Below are positions 2,937 to 11,056 of a stretch of DNA of 28,211 nt, one piece after another. The stretch is taken from IMG/VR virus record IMGVR_UViG_3300035666_000129, positions 1 through 28,211 of that record; one strand, written 5' to 3'. This DNA is from a virus. Made by a program: the position numbers and the translations under genes. Under the pieces are notes generated by a model. The model searched no databases and was not told the origin of the DNA. It saw nothing but the letters and a program-made list of their open reading frames with translations. Position 1 is the first letter of the stretch, and every line of letters begins with the position of its first letter.

Positions 2937-3218
2937 GCGAGTATGGTGGAATCGGTAGACACACCAGACTTATGAAAATTGAGCCTCATTTGGGAAACCT
3001 TATGAGTGTAATTCCTCAAATTCGGTGAAACCTGTAAAATGGCAATACCGAGCCAAGCATCATAAGATGAAGGTGTAGAGACTAGACGGGGAACACCTAA
3101 ACCGAAAGGTATGGTGAAGGTATAGTCCAGACCACAAACCGAAAGGGTAGTGAAAACTATAGTGGTACGAAAATCTGTTGGGGGCAACCCCGTGGGAGTT
3201 CAAGTCTCCCTACTCGCA
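2937..3218 (+). tRNA. tRNA-Leu (UAA), interrupted by a group I intron
   Basis: Exon 1 is 2937-2971 and exon 2 is 3170-3218; the joined tRNA is 84 nt. The acceptor GCGAGTA (2937-2943) pairs with TACTCGC (3211-3217), with discriminator A3218 and no encoded CCA. The D region GGTGGAATCGGTAGAC is typical of tRNA-Leu. The anticodon loop restores to CTTAAAA when exon 1 (ending CAGACTT) joins exon 2 (AAAATCTG), so the intron sits between U34 and A35. The long variable arm GGGG-GCAA-CCCC and the T arm GGGAG-TTCAAGT-CTCCC are both intact. Cyanobacteria and plastids carry a group I intron at this same site. The tRNA would read UUA, common in AT-rich phage genes. Its promoter lies immediately upstream. 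Confidence 0.93.
2972..3169 (+). ncRNA. Group I intron (ribozyme) in tRNA-Leu(UAA)
   Basis: The intron is 198 nt and all expected helices can be drawn. P1 pairs exon CTT with GAG in the intron (U-G at the splice site). P2 is CTCAT/ATGAG. P3 is TTCCTC/GGGGAA. P4 is TTCGGT/ACCGAG. P6 is GCC/GGT with P6a CATC-ATAA-GATG. P7 is GACTA/TAGTC. P8 is CACC/GGTG capped by ACC-GAAA-GGT. P9 is ACCAC/GTGGT enclosing two GAAA-capped hairpins. The conserved segments GGTGAAACC, CCGAGCCAAGC and AGAGACTAGACGG match the P, Q and R elements of cyanobacterial tRNA-Leu introns. The last intron base is G (omega-G, 3169). It carries no open reading frame of its own and is compact for this family. Confidence 0.9.
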
Positions 3219-3251: not shown

Positions 3252-3554
3252 ATGTCTTATCGTATCGATCACGCATACTGCTGGTACAATAATGGCAGTA
3301 TGATCGTGAAGATGTACTTTATTAATCACGTTCCATTCACATTCGACGAACTTCCAGAAGGGCATTTATATGACCAAGATCTTTGTAGAGCAGCAGACAA
3401 AGAAAGATCTTTCGAACCAGAAGACTTATATAAAAACTCGTTTTATCTTATAGATGAACTAGTGCATCCGTGCTTTTTTCCAGTAGATTTGGAGAATCCA
3501 GAAGATATGCCTGATGATATTATTGAATATGATGAGGAAGATTTAATGGGATAA
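3252..3554 (+). CDS. Small acidic hypothetical protein (100 aa)
   Basis: The protein starts MSYRIDHAYCWYNN and becomes strongly acidic towards the C-terminus (DLENPEDMPDDIIEYDEEDL). It has many aromatic residues, no signal peptide and no membrane segment. A late-type motif lies upstream at 3223-3230 and a strong intrinsic terminator at 3586-3609 follows, so it may be a one-gene transcription unit or the end of the tRNA transcript. The acidic tail could mimic DNA, as in some phage anti-host proteins, but nothing else supports this. No family is recognised. Confidence 0.7.
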   Translation: MSYRIDHAYCWYNNGSMIVKMYFINHVPFTFDELPEGHLYDQDLCRAADKERSFEPEDLYKNSFYLIDELVHPCFFPVDLENPEDMPDDIIEYDEEDLMG

Positions 3555-3585
3555 ATAGTGATGCTTAATCGTGGTTGTTTAAGCT

Positions 3586-3609
3586 GGAAGGGGTCTTACG
3601 ACCCTTTTC
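3586..3609 (+). terminator. Rho-independent terminator
   Basis: GGAAGGGGTC (3586-3595) pairs with GACCCTTTTC (3600-3609) around the loop TTAC, giving 10 bp with two G-U pairs, followed by TTGTATAA. It lies after the 100-aa gene and just before the endonuclease late promoter. Confidence 0.7.
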
Positions 3610-3612
3610 TTG

Positions 3613-3620
3613 TATAAATA
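3613..3620 (+). promoter_or_regulatory. T4-type late promoter (TATAAATA)
   Basis: An exact TATAAATA lies 22 bases before ATG 3643, directly after the terminator and inside the inverted repeat. This is the best match in the window to the canonical T4 late promoter. Confidence 0.75.
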
Positions 3621-3642
3621 ATTGTAACCACGATTAAAGCAG

Positions 3643-4191
3643 ATGGAATACTACACTTACGCTTATTTGCGTGAAGATGGCACACCTTATTATATTGGTA
3701 AGGGAAAGGCAGGAAGGATCAATAATAAACTCCACGCAATTCACCTACCTCCAGAAGAAGGAAGAAGAATATTCTTAAAGCAAAACCTTACAGATGAAGA
3801 AGCACGTAAGCACGAGGTTTATATGATTGCTGTGCTTGGTAGAAAAGATTTAGGTACTGGCATTTTAAGAAATGTGACCAATGGTGGAGAAGGATGTTCT
3901 GGACGCCGTTTAAGTGATGAAACTAAAAAGAAGTTAAGTGATAGGCATAAGGGAAGAGAATTCACGAAAGAACATAGAAGAAAATTAAGTGAATCTGCGA
4001 AGAAAAGAAAGGCAAGTAATGAAACAAAAGAAAAAATTAGGAAGTCTTCAATGGGGAAAAATAATCCCTCCTATGGAAAAAAATGGTGGAATAATGGTGT
4101 AGAAAATAAACTCTGTAAAGAGTGTCCTGGTGAAAATTATGTCTTGGGATTTTTGAATAAGCACTGGATAAAAAACATAAATAAAGAATAA
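3643..4191 (+). CDS. Free-standing GIY-YIG homing endonuclease with NUMOD3 repeats
   Basis: This 182-residue protein has the GIY-YIG nuclease core at the N-terminus: YTYAYLR (residues 4-10) and YYIGKGK (16-22), then Arg25, and the acidic residue of DEEARKHEVYMI (51-62, probably Glu58) as likely metal ligand. NVTNGGEGCSG (77-87) follows, as in phage Seg-type enzymes. Residues about 87-147 are lysine-rich NUMOD3 DNA-binding repeats (GRRLSDETKKKLS, GREFTKEHRRKLS), and the end has the WWNNG...CPGENYVLG segment seen in this family. It would cut a specific DNA site and spread by repair. It is not inside the upstream intron; it lies 424 bases after tRNA-Leu. Its expression seems restricted to late infection by the surrounding inverted repeat and late promoter. 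Confidence 0.9.
   Translation: MEYYTYAYLREDGTPYYIGKGKAGRINNKLHAIHLPPEEGRRIFLKQNLTDEEARKHEVYMIAVLGRKDLGTGILRNVTNGGEGCSGRRLSDETKKKLSDRHKGREFTKEHRRKLSESAKKRKASNETKEKIRKSSMGKNNPSYGKKWWNNGVENKLCKECPGENYVLGFLNKHWIKNINKE
4176..4183 (+). promoter_or_regulatory. T4-type late promoter motif (CATAAATA)
   Basis: CATAAATA lies within the last codons of the endonuclease gene, 36 bases before the GTG start at 4220 of the 2278-residue gene. It is the only late-type motif before that long structural block. Confidence 0.6.
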
Positions 4192-4219: not shown

Positions 4220-7200
4220 GTGCCTTTGAATAAATTGGACAATTTCATCAAGAATACAGAAGGTCGTATTCTTTATGTAAATCCAAATGACCTTGACGCT
4301 ACTGATGCGATTACAAATCAAGGTAATTCTCTTGCTCAGCCATTTAAAACAATTCAGAGAGCACTGTTAGAGGCAGCAAGATTTTCATATGTAAAGGGTG
4401 ATAATAACGACTTAGTTGAAAAGACTACAATTTTGCTCTTTCCAGGCGAATATGTTATCGATAACAGACCTGGATATGCGATTTATGATAACAGTGGAAC
4501 CGCTTATGCAGTTCCAAGAGCAGGTGGAGTCGGATCTATTGCTGCGTCAGTACTTTCTTTAGGTCTTGATTCAAACTTTGATTTAACGCAAGAAGATAAT
4601 ATTCTCTATAAGTTTAATAGTGTTTATGGTGGTGTTGTAGTCCCAAGAGGAACTTCAATTGTTGGACTCGACCTCCGTAAGACTAAGCTACGTCCAAAAT
4701 ATGTACCAAATCCTACTGATTCAACTGTAGATACTGCAGCGATTTTTAGAATCACTGGTGCTTGCTACTTCTGGCAGTTTTCGTTCTTTGATGCCGATTC
4801 GACAGACGTAGTTTATACAAACCCTGATAACTTTGCATCAAACTATCGTTCAACACCAAACTTCTCACACCATAAACTTACTTGCTTCGAATTCTGTGAT
4901 GGTGTAAATCAAATTACTTTATCTAATGGTGCTACAACGGGTCTGACTGACCTTGATATGTATTATAGCAAAGTATCAAATGCTTATAATCAATATCGTG
5001 ACATTGATCAGAAGTTTCCAAGTTCTCCTAGAGGATTCAATAAGAGAAATCCTGAGTGGCAAATTGTTGGTGCTTTTGCTTCAGATCCAATTAGTATTTC
5101 ATCAATTATCTCTGGAAATGGTGCAACTCCAACAAGCGTTGTAACAGTTATCACAGCAGTTCCTCATAATTTAAACCAGGGAACTCCAATTAAGATTAAA
5201 GGAGTCAGTGGTTCTGGTGTTGTTGCTCCTTATAATATTTCTACAATAGTTCAGAATGTTGTAGACGCGACTACATTCACATATCTCCTGCCATCACTTT
5301 CATCATATCCAAACATTAACCCAAGTCCAAGTGCTTCTGGAGCGACGGTTACTGTTGAAACTGATACTGTATCTGGTGCATCTCCATACATCTTTAACTG
5401 CTCCTTACGTTCAGTATGGGGTATGAATGGACTTCACGCTGATGGTAATAAGTCTGCTGGATTTAGAAGTACTGTTGTTGCACAGTTCACGGCAATCTCT
5501 CTACAAAAAGATGACCGTGCTTTTGTAAAATACGATAAGTCTTCTAGAACATATCAGGGAGTTAATTATACGACTGTTTATGGATCTTCACTTCCAGAAG
5601 GTGCATCACAGACAGACTCTACAAAGGTCTATCACTTAGACCCAGACGCTGTTTATCGCAGAGGATGGGAAACGAGTCATATGAAAATTTCAAATGACAG
5701 TTTCATTCAGATTGTTTCTGTTTTTGCAATTGGATTTAATCGTCACTTTGATGCAAATTCTGGTGGTGATGGATCGATTACAAACTCCAACTCCAACTTT
5801 GGACAGATTTCACTGACGGCAACTGGATTTAAAAAGGAAGCATTTAGTAAAGATAACAAAGCCTTCATTACATCAGTTCTTCCTCCAAGAGCAGTTTCGG
5901 AAACAGAAACAGAAGTTCAGTGGTTAGCATTTGATGATGCATTAACGAAGACCATTGGCATTTCAAGTCACCTTTATCTTTCTGGATTTAACTCTCCTGA
6001 TGTGCTTCCACCATCTCAAGCGCAAGGTTGTAGAGTTGGTGCAAAAACAAACGATACTCTATACTTAGTGTCTGCTGGATCTACATTCTCAGCATCCATT
6101 TATATGTGCGATAATGTGATCAGCACAACTGGACTTACAACAGCATTAGGAACTACAAGTGCTGTAAAAATTTATGATGTTACTTCTGGACCTACATCTG
6201 ATTCATTCACAATTGGTGCAAACAACCTCTTAACTGGAGAAAAGGTTAAAATTATCAGTGACGATGGAGATCTTCCAGAAAATATTACTGAGCACGTAAC
6301 ATATTATGCTATTAACAATGGTGATAATAATACTGTTAAACTTGCTTCTTCCTTCACGAACTCTTCTCAGGGGCAAGCAATTACAGTTTATGGTGGTACA
6401 AAACTTCATATCCTAAGTCGAGTATCAGATAAGGATTCTGGAGAACTGGGTTCACCAATTCAATATGATGCTCAAAATAGAAATTGGTTTGTTCACGTTA
6501 ATGCAAGCAATGACATTTATAATGCTTTCGTAAATGATACAATTCCAAATTATTCTTCTACAAGAGAACTTGGATATCTTAAGAGAAAGATTGATCAAAG
6601 AAGTCTAGATGAAAGACTTTATAAGTTCCGTGTTGTTATTCCAAAAGAGCAGGAAAATGCTAGAGATCCTGAGATTGGATTTGTAATTCAAGAATCAAGT
6701 ACAACAGGTGCAAGAAGCAATGTTGATTTCACAAGAACAAGCATTGCAACTACAGATTATGAGTATAACAAAAATCCAAGATTCATTGCAACGTGTTCAT
6801 CGAGTTCTGGAACAATCACCGTATTAACAGAACTTCCTCATAATGTTCAAATTGGTGAAATCGTTAACATTAAGAATGTTCAATCCACTACAAATGCAAG
6901 TGGTGTTGGAAATAGTGGATACAATGGTACCTTCGTTGTTACTGGAGTTCCGAACTCATATTCATTCCAGTATGGGCAAACTGATATTGATGGAACTTCC
7001 CACTTAGTAGGAACATTCTCAAATAATGTTGGAATCAGAAGTACAAATCTTCCAAGATTCGAAAGAAATGATTTCCAGAGCAATCTCTACATCTATGATC
7101 ACGATGTCATTTCTCCATACATTTATAATCAACAAGACGGCATTTATCACCTTTATGTGTTGAATGCAAGCAATGCAATGAACGCCGAATTCACAAATCT

Positions 7201-10200
7201 TGAATTTGGTCAGTTGGCGACGAATCTTTATCCAGAATTGGATAGAGATAATGTTACATCAAACCCACCAACAGCAAAGACATTTGCAAAGCGTTCTCCA
7301 ATCGGTGCCATTGTTACAAATGATCTGAAGAAGAGTATCACTAGAGAAAGTGCAGACCTTCTTCTAAAAACAGTTGGTTTGGGTCTTACAATTTCTTCGG
7401 TTTCAACTGGTGGTGGAACCGCAACACTTACATTCCCAAGATTCCACGGTCTTTCTGGAATTGCAACAGGTACAGTTACTGGAGGCAGTGGATATGTTGA
7501 TGGAACCTATTATAATGTAAAACTTCTAAATGGTTCTCAGACTGGAACTTGGAATGGTGCTACTGCAAAAGTAGTTATTTCTAGCGGTGTAGTCACTTCT
7601 GTTGATATCATTGCACCAGGTTCTGGATACAGTGCTGCTGGACTGTACTTTGATCAAACTGCAATCGGTGCTGGAAATGGTGCCGCAAGATATACGATTG
7701 CTACGACAGGTATTTCGACGAATGTTGGTGACGTTGTTCAACTCGCTGGTATTGGAACTACTGCAAGTAATCACTATTTGATTACCTCAGTACCTTCATC
7801 AACTCAAGTTGCAGTTGCAAAAACCACAGGTGACCCAGATATTCTACCAACACAATATGCATTTGTTGTTGGACCATCCTCACGTGTTCTACTGACTTAT
7901 TATGATTCTGTATCTGGAATTACAACAGTTAGAACAACTGCTGCACACGGTCTATTATCTGGAAACAGATTCCAAATTCTAGATTCTTCTTATAATAATG
8001 TTGGGGAGTATGTTGTAAAAGAAAAATTAGCATATAATCAATTCACAATCACTACAAATAAGCAGTTATCCATTACAAATGGATTTGTAATGAAGCACGG
8101 ATTATCTGCAAATGATGGTATATCCGATAGTTCACAAGAAAATTATGGAATCAGACACGTATCCTTCTATGGAAACGATAAATTCACACTAAGTTCTGCA
8201 ATTACTACAGGAACATCTATTAGTATTCAGAGCACTGGAATTGGTACTGCTGTAAGACTTCCTCTTGGTTCTTACATTCAGATTGATAATGAAATTATGA
8301 GAGTGGTCAGTAGCAATAATAATTCTACTGCAACTGTAATTCGTGGTTCTCTTGGAACTCGCCAAGAAAGTCACGATGCAAACTCTTTAATTCGCAAAAT
8401 TGAACCTCTAGCGATTGAATTCCGTAGACCTTCGATTCTTCGTGCTTCTGGTCATACATTTGAATATCTTGGTTACGGTCCTGGTAACTATTCAACAGGT
8501 CTCCCTCAAGTACAGGTCAAAACACTCAATGAGCAAGAAAACCTCTTAGCGCAGGGTCAGAAGCGTTCCTGTGGACTTGTAATTTATAGTGGTATGAATA
8601 ATGCTGGAGAAATCTTCAGCGGTAAGACGAAGTTTGATATACCAGCTCCAACTGAAACTGGTGAAGATCCAGAATCTGTCAATGTTATCTTTGATAATGT
8701 TACGATTAGAAATAGACTTTGGGTTGAAGGTGGAGCATCAGGAACTGTTCTGTCTCAGTTTGATGGTCCAGTTAGCTTCAATAAGCAAGTCAGAGCAAAG
8801 AACATTGATGTTGCAGAATCAATTCGTGCCGCTACTTATGAGAATTTCAAGCTAAGCGATCTTCCAACAACAGATGAACCAACATTTGCTCAGGATCGTG
8901 TTTTAAAAGTTAATGATGCTGCAACTGGATATGAATTAACTGATCCTCACGAATTAGACATCTACAAACTCAGAAGTTTTGGTGTAAGCAATGATCCTAC
9001 AGTTTATGCTGGTATCGGATCTACAGTTAGCAGCCGTCTTCAAATTAGTGGAATTTCTACTGCTAAGTTTGCAATCAATCAAAGAGTTAAGGTTTTTGGT
9101 GCAACTGATTTTAGTGACAGCACTTTAGTTGAAAGTCCAGTTACAGCATCTTGTAGTGCTGTAAAAGTTGGAACTGCGGCAACTGTTTCGACATATTTTT
9201 ATTGGGTTGCTCAGTATCACTTTAGAAATGGTAAGGTTGGACCTGCAGCACAGATTGCACCACTTGCAGGAATTGGTCAAGTAGATATTGCAAACTGGAA
9301 TGACCTAAACAACATTACATTAACTCTTGCCAGAACGAACACAAATTATGGTATTCTGGTTTATCGTCAAGAAAGTGCTGGAACAAGTGGAACTGCAAAT
9401 ATCAACAATGCAAAACTTGTTGGAATTCTTGGACCAAAAGAACTTGGATCTTCTACTTCAGGAATCACTTGGATAGACTACGGTTTATATGAGAAGACTG
9501 AATGGTCAACAAAGGGAACTTCAAATGAATATACAAGTAATCAAGTTCACTTCCCACTTGTTGGTGTTACAACATCTAGAAGAGGTTGGGCAATTGATCG
9601 AATTGTTGGAATCGGTGTAAGTTTCATTACCCTAAATGGACAGTATCGAGTTAATCCTGATGGAGCAGTTAAAGTTGTTCACGATAATACCTATGCAATT
9701 ACTCAAGCAATTAATTCTACAGTTGCAAATGGTGGAAATCAACTTGATCTTTCAAGTGGAACCTATTTGGTTAATAACATTACAATTCCAACTGGATTTA
9801 GTTTGAAAGGTAATGGCAAGAACACTGTTGTTAAGTTGCAGTATTTTGCTACTGATTTAACAGATGGTGGTGGAAATTCGCTAGAGTTTAATGGTAACTT
9901 AGTTGGTATTGCAACCACAAATCCAACTGACATTACAATTAGCAATCTGACAATCGACGGAAACTCTGGAAATAATATCCTGTTTAATGATGATCTTGAT
10001 AATTACTTGATGTACTTCCCAGAAATAGATTCATCACTTATCAAAGGAATTGAAGTTCGTAACTCATCTGGACACGGATTATATGTCTATGATTCTAGAA
10101 GACTTTCAATCGAGGATTCATCTTTTGTTGATGGATGTATTACTGATAGATATTCATTCCAACCATTGAATGCTCAACAGTCACAAACTCTGAGAGTCAA

Positions 10201-11056
10201 TGATTCTTTATTCGAAAACTATCCAGGACCTGTTGATCTGTCTGTAACTTCGGTTGTTTCAACGAGTGGTAATATTATTCGCAACTGTGGAACTGGTCTT
10301 AGAACGTATGCTTCTGGTAAGATTACAACCACAAACAATATCATTCTTGGACCATCTGATGAGTGGATTCCAACACCTGACATTTATGATAGTGACTACA
10401 ACTCAGTGAACTTTACTATTCAAAGAGGAGTTACTTTTAATAGCCCTGTACTTCTTTATGTTGAAGATGGTGACGCTAAAGATATTAGCAGCACTCAGGT
10501 TTCAATTATTTCCGCTGGAATTGGTACTGTTGTTGGACAAGGAACTACAAATGAAACTCTTGGATCAAGATTCTTGAACTTCAATATTACAACTCCAGAT
10601 TCTGGAACATTTGGAAGACAGAATGGATATATTCAACTGAGTCTCACATCAACTCAAACCAATACTCTTGGATTAAGTTCTTCTCTTGGTTATGATATTA
10701 TTGCCAAGGAGTTTCTTACCCAACCAGCAGGATTTACTACATATATTGGTATTGGTACAGGAACCTGGAATACAATCGGTGCTGGAGCAACCCAATACAC
10801 GGTAACTCTTGATGATTATACACAATTCAGTGGTATTTCAACAGGGGATATCGTTAAATTGGTGAACCACTCAGTTTCACCAGATCTATCAACAACTGAA
10901 TTTACAGTTGCTGAGAAGATTGATGCAGGAGCTATAACGAAGAGACTTAGACTTACTGGAATTACAACAACTTCAGTAACTAACGGAGCTCAGACTGGAT
11001 ATATATCTATAAGGAACATCTTTACCATCGCAAAAGGAAGAGTCGGAGTAATTTAA
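4220..11056 (+). CDS. Giant virion structural protein (2278 aa), tail/fibre type, with beta-helix domain
   Basis: The start is GTG 4220, preceded by TAGGAGTTAGGATACC, where GGAG is a plausible ribosome site. Residues about 15-90 (YVNPNDLDATDA, PFKTIQRALLEAARF, TILLFPGEYVID) resemble the first coil of pectate-lyase-like right-handed beta-helices. A second beta-helix region lies at about 1826-2065 (AITQAINSTVANGG, LSSGTYLVNNITI, SLKGNGKNT, ITISNLTIDGNSGNN). In between, a module with the pattern PHNL-x-x-G followed by beta strands recurs at about 306-355, 863-917 and 1233-1276. No signal peptide or membrane segment is present. Cyanomyophages carry proteins of this type in the late block, as baseplate- or fibre-linked virion components. 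The beta-helix could bind or degrade glycans; no catalytic residues are assigned. It is followed by its neighbour after one base. Confidence 0.85.
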   Translation: MPLNKLDNFIKNTEGRILYVNPNDLDATDAITNQGNSLAQPFKTIQRALLEAARFSYVKGDNNDLVEKTTILLFPGEYVIDNRPGYAIYDNSGTAYAVPRAGGVGSIAASVLSLGLDSNFDLTQEDNILYKFNSVYGGVVVPRGTSIVGLDLRKTKLRPKYVPNPTDSTVDTAAIFRITGACYFWQFSFFDADSTDVVYTNPDNFASNYRSTPNFSHHKLTCFEFCDGVNQITLSNGATTGLTDLDMYYSKVSNAYNQYRDIDQKFPSSPRGFNKRNPEWQIVGAFASDPISISSIISGNGATPTSVVTVITAVPHNLNQGTPIKIKGVSGSGVVAPYNISTIVQNVVDATTFTYLLPSLSSYPNINPSPSASGATVTVETDTVSGASPYIFNCSLRSVWGMNGLHADGNKSAGFRSTVVAQFTAISLQKDDRAFVKYDKSSRTYQGVNYTTVYGSSLPEGASQTDSTKVYHLDPDAVYRRGWETSHMKISNDSFIQIVSVFAIGFNRHFDANSGGDGSITNSNSNFGQISLTATGFKKEAFSKDNKAFITSVLPPRAVSETETEVQWLAFDDALTKTIGISSHLYLSGFNSPDVLPPSQAQGCRVGAKTNDTLYLVSAGSTFSASIYMCDNVISTTGLTTALGTTSAVKIYDVTSGPTSDSFTIGANNLLTGEKVKIISDDGDLPENITEHVTYYAINNGDNNTVKLASSFTNSSQGQAITVYGGTKLHILSRVSDKDSGELGSPIQYDAQNRNWFVHVNASNDIYNAFVNDTIPNYSSTRELGYLKRKIDQRSLDERLYKFRVVIPKEQENARDPEIGFVIQESSTTGARSNVDFTRTSIATTDYEYNKNPRFIATCSSSSGTITVLTELPHNVQIGEIVNIKNVQSTTNASGVGNSGYNGTFVVTGVPNSYSFQYGQTDIDGTSHLVGTFSNNVGIRSTNLPRFERNDFQSNLYIYDHDVISPYIYNQQDGIYHLYVLNASNAMNAEFTNLEFGQLATNLYPELDRDNVTSNPPTAKTFAKRSPIGAIVTNDLKKSITRESADLLLKTVGLGLTISSVSTGGGTATLTFPRFHGLSGIATGTVTGGSGYVDGTYYNVKLLNGSQTGTWNGATAKVVISSGVVTSVDIIAPGSGYSAAGLYFDQTAIGAGNGAARYTIATTGISTNVGDVVQLAGIGTTASNHYLITSVPSSTQVAVAKTTGDPDILPTQYAFVVGPSSRVLLTYYDSVSGITTVRTTAAHGLLSGNRFQILDSSYNNVGEYVVKEKLAYNQFTITTNKQLSITNGFVMKHGLSANDGISDSSQENYGIRHVSFYGNDKFTLSSAITTGTSISIQSTGIGTAVRLPLGSYIQIDNEIMRVVSSNNNSTATVIRGSLGTRQESHDANSLIRKIEPLAIEFRRPSILRASGHTFEYLGYGPGNYSTGLPQVQVKTLNEQENLLAQGQKRSCGLVIYSGMNNAGEIFSGKTKFDIPAPTETGEDPESVNVIFDNVTIRNRLWVEGGASGTVLSQFDGPVSFNKQVRAKNIDVAESIRAATYENFKLSDLPTTDEPTFAQDRVLKVNDAATGYELTDPHELDIYKLRSFGVSNDPTVYAGIGSTVSSRLQISGISTAKFAINQRVKVFGATDFSDSTLVESPVTASCSAVKVGTAATVSTYFYWVAQYHFRNGKVGPAAQIAPLAGIGQVDIANWNDLNNITLTLARTNTNYGILVYRQESAGTSGTANINNAKLVGILGPKELGSSTSGITWIDYGLYEKTEWSTKGTSNEYTSNQVHFPLVGVTTSRRGWAIDRIVGIGVSFITLNGQYRVNPDGAVKVVHDNTYAITQAINSTVANGGNQLDLSSGTYLVNNITIPTGFSLKGNGKNTVVKLQYFATDLTDGGGNSLEFNGNLVGIATTNPTDITISNLTIDGNSGNNILFNDDLDNYLMYFPEIDSSLIKGIEVRNSSGHGLYVYDSRRLSIEDSSFVDGCITDRYSFQPLNAQQSQTLRVNDSLFENYPGPVDLSVTSVVSTSGNIIRNCGTGLRTYASGKITTTNNIILGPSDEWIPTPDIYDSDYNSVNFTIQRGVTFNSPVLLYVEDGDAKDISSTQVSIISAGIGTVVGQGTTNETLGSRFLNFNITTPDSGTFGRQNGYIQLSLTSTQTNTLGLSSSLGYDIIAKEFLTQPAGFTTYIGIGTGTWNTIGAGATQYTVTLDDYTQFSGISTGDIVKLVNHSVSPDLSTTEFTVAEKIDAGAITKRLRLTGITTTSVTNGAQTGYISIRNIFTIAKGRVGVI

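Follow-up and report, generated by a model that had tools for sequence, protein, structure and literature searches.

A candidate late-on translational switch: a late promoter within a start-site hairpin ahead of a GIY-YIG endonuclease gene in cyanophages

Results

A GIY-YIG endonuclease gene between phrog_4134 and a tail-fibre gene

The window, by which we mean the whole stretch of viral DNA analysed here (28,211 nucleotides, 28 kb), covers late tail genes from a T4-like cyanophage. The plus-strand gene at 3252..3554 encodes a protein of 100 aa that belongs to phrog_4134, a family of unknown function, and its stop codon falls within a promoter-like octamer described below (P1). It is followed on the same strand by an endonuclease gene at 3643..4191 (182 aa, ATG at 3643-3645) and, 3' of this insertion, by a tail-fibre gene at 4220..11056. 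In the isolate S-SRM01, a homologue of the phrog_4134 gene adjoins the tail-fibre gene, and the endonuclease is absent at that site.

The endonuclease has an N-terminal GIY-YIG domain followed by NUMOD3 repeats. The motif YAY...YYIGKG is present, and R25, E58 and N77 are invariant among 26 relatives. A profile search of PDB sequences gave no match. The top PDB matches of its predicted structure (mean pLDDT 73) were all GIY-YIG domains of UvrC, with probabilities of 0.75-0.98 but with E values of at least 0.09. The enzyme was therefore taken as a GIY-YIG endonuclease on the combined basis of the motif residues, the NUMOD3 repeats and the UvrC-like predicted fold.

The 3' end of the endonuclease gene holds a promoter core, CATAAATA (4176..4183, plus strand), which precedes the tail-fibre gene and is likely its late promoter. 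S-SRM01, which carries no endonuclease here, has its own native CTAAATA ahead of the tail-fibre gene. Embedded promoters have been described for the seg and mob genes of T4 and are thought to favour retention of these genes (PMC2988022).

Two further features of the window were noted. At 2937-3218 lies a tRNA-Leu-like gene, missed by the default tRNA scan, whose anticodon loop is split by a group I intron (Rfam RF00028, 2962-3151); S-SRM01 (locus L082) has an unsplit tRNA at the equivalent place, seemingly with a TAA anticodon. A small ORF at 2400-2606, overlapping the preceding ORF, matched a Phd/YefM-like antitoxin with a score under the Pfam cut-off and was also matched by a PHROG antitoxin family.

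Anatomy of the regulatory head

The region directly before the endonuclease gene contains a long inverted repeat. Its 5' arm, TGCTTAATCGTGGTT (3562..3576), and its 3' arm, AACCACGATTAAAGCA (3626..3641), both on the plus strand, can be read from the sequence as 15 base pairs with A3636 bulged, and G3642 is the only base that separates the 3' arm from the ATG at 3643-3645. Folding of 3540-3680 gave -43 kcal/mol, compared with a mean of -26 kcal/mol in 200 dinucleotide shuffles (z -5.5), none of which was as good. The inverted-repeat fold is not a product of chance. An earlier sequence-only reading of this DNA had described the one-bulge repeat, ending one base short of the start codon, and its description was right to the base.

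That reading had also placed a terminator and TATAAATA between the arms, and both were found there on the plus strand. The intrinsic-terminator-like hairpin occupies 3586..3612 (stem 3586-3609, loop TTAC, U-rich tail CCCTTTTCTTG). The late promoter P2, TATAAATA, lies at 3613..3620 and is the sole exact copy in the 28 kb window. The late start was placed by T4-type spacing, with +1 six bases past the octamer. By this spacing, the predicted start at 3626 is the first base of the 3' arm, so that this arm would form the first 16 nt of the late mRNA. The 5' arm complements the 5' end of the predicted late mRNA of the endonuclease and is separate from P2, its end being 36 nt ahead of the promoter. 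Judged by the sequence, the late RNA would indeed lose the 5' arm, as had been proposed.

Several elements went beyond the sequence-only reading, among them the core CATAAATA in the 3' end of the endonuclease gene. The second is another late-promoter-like octamer, P1, GATAAATA (3550..3557, plus strand), which matches NATAAATA, the reported late promoter of cyanomyoviruses (PMC2984593). Its predicted +1, 3563, is the first base of the third element, a local stem-loop at 3563..3584 (plus strand) formed by GCTTAA (3563-3568) and TTAAGC (3579-3584). This stem-loop is an alternative to the long-range pairing and holds the inner 5' arm in its loop. When 3563-3612 was folded alone, the stem-loop was present in the minimum-energy fold and was followed by the terminator (-20.4 kcal/mol). 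No relevant Rfam family was found over 3530-3660 at gathering or permissive thresholds; a mir-60 match (E 0.23) was rejected as chance.

The head recurs in related phages with different letters

Using the endonuclease as query, we obtained 80 IMG/VR loci, and the regions upstream of their start codons had a near-identical layout written in different letters. Together with two pattern scans independent of the protein and two more protein scans, this search of IMG/VR and isolate genomes yielded at least 178 distinct cassettes, which lie in cyanophage-like genomes. To be collected, a cassette had to have TAAATA, ATAAATA and a complementarity of 8 or more. The invariance of the two cores is thus partly by construction, since both belong to the collecting rule; loci found by protein alone display both cores independently of it. 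P2 reads TATAAATA in 178 of 192 candidate cassettes. The TAAATA of P1, whose core is part of the search definition, is invariant across 79 aligned cassettes. In 166 of the 178 cassettes, 5 nt separate TAAATA from the stem. The T-tract of the terminator is present in 152 of the 178, and the region between the stem-loop and P2 folds at -14.0 kcal/mol versus -3.8 kcal/mol after shuffling.

The genes behind the cassettes encode mostly GIY-YIG enzymes of several kinds and some HNH enzymes; an open frame of 139 aa behind one cassette (L027) gave no match. Among the isolates, S-SRM01 has seven cassettes, B23 has three candidates and S-B68 has one. The regulatory head is absent upstream of some related enzymes, for example in ACG-2014f and RN05-S.

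Other arrangements were seen as well. At six loci (L326, L334, L343, L387, L493 and L083) a second architecture, GGGCAGCAAC...GTTGCGTAAGTCCCA, stands before related GIY-YIG genes. It has long complementary arms whose pairing extends to the ATG, and a terminator-like hairpin seems to enclose its 5' arm. At other loci, such as L025, L032, L271 and L277 (empty form L296), different phages carry different cassettes at almost one position between the same flanking genes, which suggests that cassettes were repeatedly inserted or replaced around the same target genes. One S-SRM01 cassette (L488, 17900-18200) lies just 5' of the gene for single-stranded DNA-binding protein and near the helicase-loader gene, the same neighbourhood as that of T4 segG (32/59).

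The two arms covary

The arms were compared for compensatory changes, as the sequence-only reading had suggested. They covary strongly, in dozens of cassettes from many genomic surroundings, and independent variation was not seen. In the swap test, each 5' arm of 89 representative cassettes was paired with the 3' arm of another cassette that differed in at least 3 of 10 bases. The duplex of a cassette's own arms had a mean of -22.1 kcal/mol, compared with -8.9 kcal/mol after swapping, and the own partner was the stronger in 99.9% of 6732 swaps.

Pairs were then counted on TGC-type cassettes alone, because TGC and AACCAC types are one base out of register when mixed. The window's own cassette is of the AACCAC type, so it takes part in the swap test and lies outside the pair counts. 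The helix that joins the 5' loop to the mRNA 5' end (the first ten bases around the late start) was 98.0% paired in an alignment of 43 TGC-type cassettes, a percentage inflated by selection because the cassettes had been gathered with a minimum complementarity of 8. When the partner was slid, pairing fell to 23-40%. Double changes occurred in 7 of the 10 pairs, and double-change cells numbered 124, compared with 33.8 ± 5.3 in shuffles. The covarying positions change as base pairs, of several pair types. Covariation is properly tested by the swaps, the slides and the double changes.

The arms belong to the cassette rather than to late promoters

We then used 113 kb of the S-SRM01 genome as a control. 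Of the 55 [AC]TAAATA sites in these stretches, six have arms that reach at least -19.9 kcal/mol in strength, and these sites are exactly the six endonuclease cassettes present there. The next-best value, -15.1 kcal/mol, came from a site that overlaps a cassette, and nothing comparable to the cassette arms was found at the other 49 sites. This control ruled out that such arms are a general late-promoter feature, and the hairpin is therefore a feature of the endonuclease cassette.

Empty sites were also compared with occupied ones (39 rows, minus two that were not actually empty, leaving 37 distinct sites). TAAATA is missing at the junction in 31 of the 37, as in the pair ...GACTGAC|TAAATATAAGTGCC versus ...GACTGAC|CTCATACC (L235 versus L203), and the left edge of the cassette is sharp, at TAAATA. 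These results indicate that the TAAATA of P1 is cassette-borne, and the idea that P1 is merely a late promoter already present at the insertion point was rejected in general. The window's own site is an exception, as its empty relative S-SRM01 has the native CTAAATA.

A probable late-on switch

We consider it probable, with a chance of roughly two in three, that the head at 3550-3642 places the endonuclease under late-on control through escape from the start-site hairpin. RNA arriving from upstream would mostly be halted at the internal terminator. RNA that reads through would contain both arms, and its 3' arm would be paired at the start codon, which would prevent ribosome initiation. Late in infection, a gp55-type RNA polymerase would start at P2 (TATAAATA, +1 at 3626), and the resulting RNA would open with the 3' arm, without the 5' arm, and with an open start site. 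By analogy with T4 I-TevI, T4 segB and Aeh1 mobE, the GIY-YIG endonuclease would be made only late. The promoter core embedded in the 3' end of its gene would sustain expression of the tail-fibre gene that follows.

Predicted energies are consistent with this scheme. For the window's copy, the predicted cost of opening positions -12 to +6 relative to the start codon is 14.2 kcal/mol in read-through RNA versus 1.4 kcal/mol in RNA starting at 3626; the means over 89 cassettes are 9.4 versus 3.3 kcal/mol. The predicted leaders are 17-25 nt long, and in 177 of 178 cassettes the leader contains no Shine-Dalgarno-like GGAG, GAGG or AGGA. The helix would thus hide the start site itself rather than a classical ribosome site. 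At the window's locus early read-through may be slight, since the neighbours are late structural genes. The S-SRM01 cassettes lie within long same-strand operons, one of them among replication genes, and read-through is therefore expected there.

One observation speaks against a pure cis switch. The outer part of the long-range helix has a competitor in the local 5' stem, which such a switch does not need and which is the better kept of the two (own partner stronger in 87% versus 70% of swaps).

A possible antisense RNA and other explanations

The segment from P1 to the terminator may also be a small-RNA gene. Its product, an RNA of about 50 nt, would carry in its loop the antisense of the first ~10 nt of the P2 mRNA; by repressing the endonuclease in trans, it would set the enzyme's dose in late infection. 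This reading, which is compatible with the cis switch, we regard as possible but tentative. The spacing of exactly 5 nt from TAAATA to the stem-loop in 166 of 178 cassettes would put +1 at the stem foot, and the P1 core came with the cassette at most sites, given its absence from 31 of 37 empty ones. The stem-loop and the terminator fold as a stand-alone unit, and in the swaps the local stem holds up better than the outer helix. Pairing begins at +1 of the mRNA, and the swap and pair-count results show that the loop is complementary to the translation leader of its target. Moreover, cyanophage S-PM2 is known to make CfrI, an RNA that is antisense to an endonuclease gene (PMC2984593). However, cis pairing suffices to explain the covariation. 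The base before the TAAATA of P1 is C, not A, in about one third of the sites, and in S-SRM01 CTAAATA has little strand bias whereas ATAAATA is strongly biased, so that some cassettes may have a weak P1 or none. The pairing cores differ among the cassettes of one genome (seven in S-SRM01), yet their diversity within a genome is no greater than between unrelated genomes. Selected orthogonality among one genome's cassettes is accordingly not claimed (own -22.0 versus cross -8.4 kcal/mol; permutation p 0.38 and 0.30).

Both modes of control could be united in a mobile, nuclease-independent RNA module with two promoters, in which a cis early-off switch is combined with antisense dose control in trans and the loop-target pairs diversify by cassette. 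We put this forward as a speculative proposal, possible but less likely than not.

It is very unlikely that the inverted repeat acts as DNA, either as an operator for the endonuclease or as part of its homing target. I-TevI does bind an operator over its own late promoter and represses it (PMC2988022), and the sharp left edge of the cassette at TAAATA would fit a DNA site. But the arms change together as base pairs of several types, a single protein is unlikely to recognise arms with dozens of different sequences, and GIY-YIG and HNH enzymes alike have this head in front of them. Least credible of all is an insulator only, in which a terminator against upstream transcription is joined to an ordinary late promoter and the repeat is incidental or an RNase site; the conservation of both terminator and promoter agrees with it, but it leaves unexplained the covariation of the arms and their absence at the other late-promoter-like sites of S-SRM01.

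Discussion

The late-on switch proposed here would work like that of I-TevI in the td intron of T4, where read-through RNA hides the translation start and late RNA is unable to form the hairpin (PMC2988022). The same arrangement holds for I-TevII, I-TevIII, T4 segB and Aeh1 mobE (Edgell et al. 2010, PMC2988022); control by hairpin and late promoter was shown for mobE and is implicated for segB (PMC3014915). The sequence-only reading had likened the head to that of I-TevI and had supposed that the logic arose anew for a free-standing enzyme. Its likeness in logic stands, as the start is predicted to be closed in read-through RNA and open in late RNA, and its likeness in anatomy does not. The supposed novelty has to be given up, because segB and mobE, both free-standing, are already covered by reviews (PMC2988022, PMC3014915).

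The anatomical contrast was drawn with the sequences of I-TevI and segB. I-TevI is intron-encoded, and its late promoter is itself the 5' arm (AATAAATACTTC... / ...GAGGTATTT). Its compact hairpin encloses the Shine-Dalgarno sequence GAGG, whereas the cyanophage leaders mostly have none, and there is neither a terminator between its arms nor a second TAAATA within 140 nt. T4 segB resembles the cyanophage gene in being a free-standing GIY-YIG gene with a late promoter upstream and a hairpin over the start codon. In segB, however, the late promoter again forms the 5' arm (AACATAAATA / TATTTATGTT), without a terminator between the arms, without a separate 5' stem-loop and, as in I-TevI, without a further promoter core in the 140 nt upstream. 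For mobE of Aeromonas phage Aeh1, Gibb and Edgell (2007 and 2009) reportedly described a hairpin and reduced translation initiation. This HNH enzyme is likewise free-standing, and the hairpin in its RNA lowers translation initiation (PMC3014915). We therefore regard the cyanophage head as a new variant of I-TevI-type control, which would work alike but is built differently from I-TevI and segB, and which is plausibly independent in origin. No prior description of it was found in the literature searched, subscription journals lying outside that scope.

Leader helices also silence read-through RNA of the T4 genes e, soc and 49, and in the case of e, transcripts that start at nearby late promoters do not contain the 5' strand and are translated (PMC3014915). 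Those are resident phage genes, whereas the cyanophage head belongs to a mobile cassette. CfrI shares with the possible small RNA that it is antisense to a cyanophage homing-endonuclease gene. It is, however, a cis-antisense RNA of about 225 nt that spans psbA and the endonuclease gene on the opposite strand (PMC2984593), whereas the module here lies on the same strand as its gene; no Rfam match to CfrI was found in the window.

An antisense RNA encoded by the phage is a prediction that can easily be tested. A review of 2010 stated that no functionally characterised trans-acting small RNA was known from T4 (PMC3014915). The cassettes supply a large natural set of compensatory variants with which late-on translational control in cyanophages can be tested. 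A selfish endonuclease has to cut the genomes of rivals yet spare its own carrier. The head described here has a conserved architecture and a sequence rewritten copy by copy, and is common to different nuclease families, which suggests that control of timing moves together with the mobile element.
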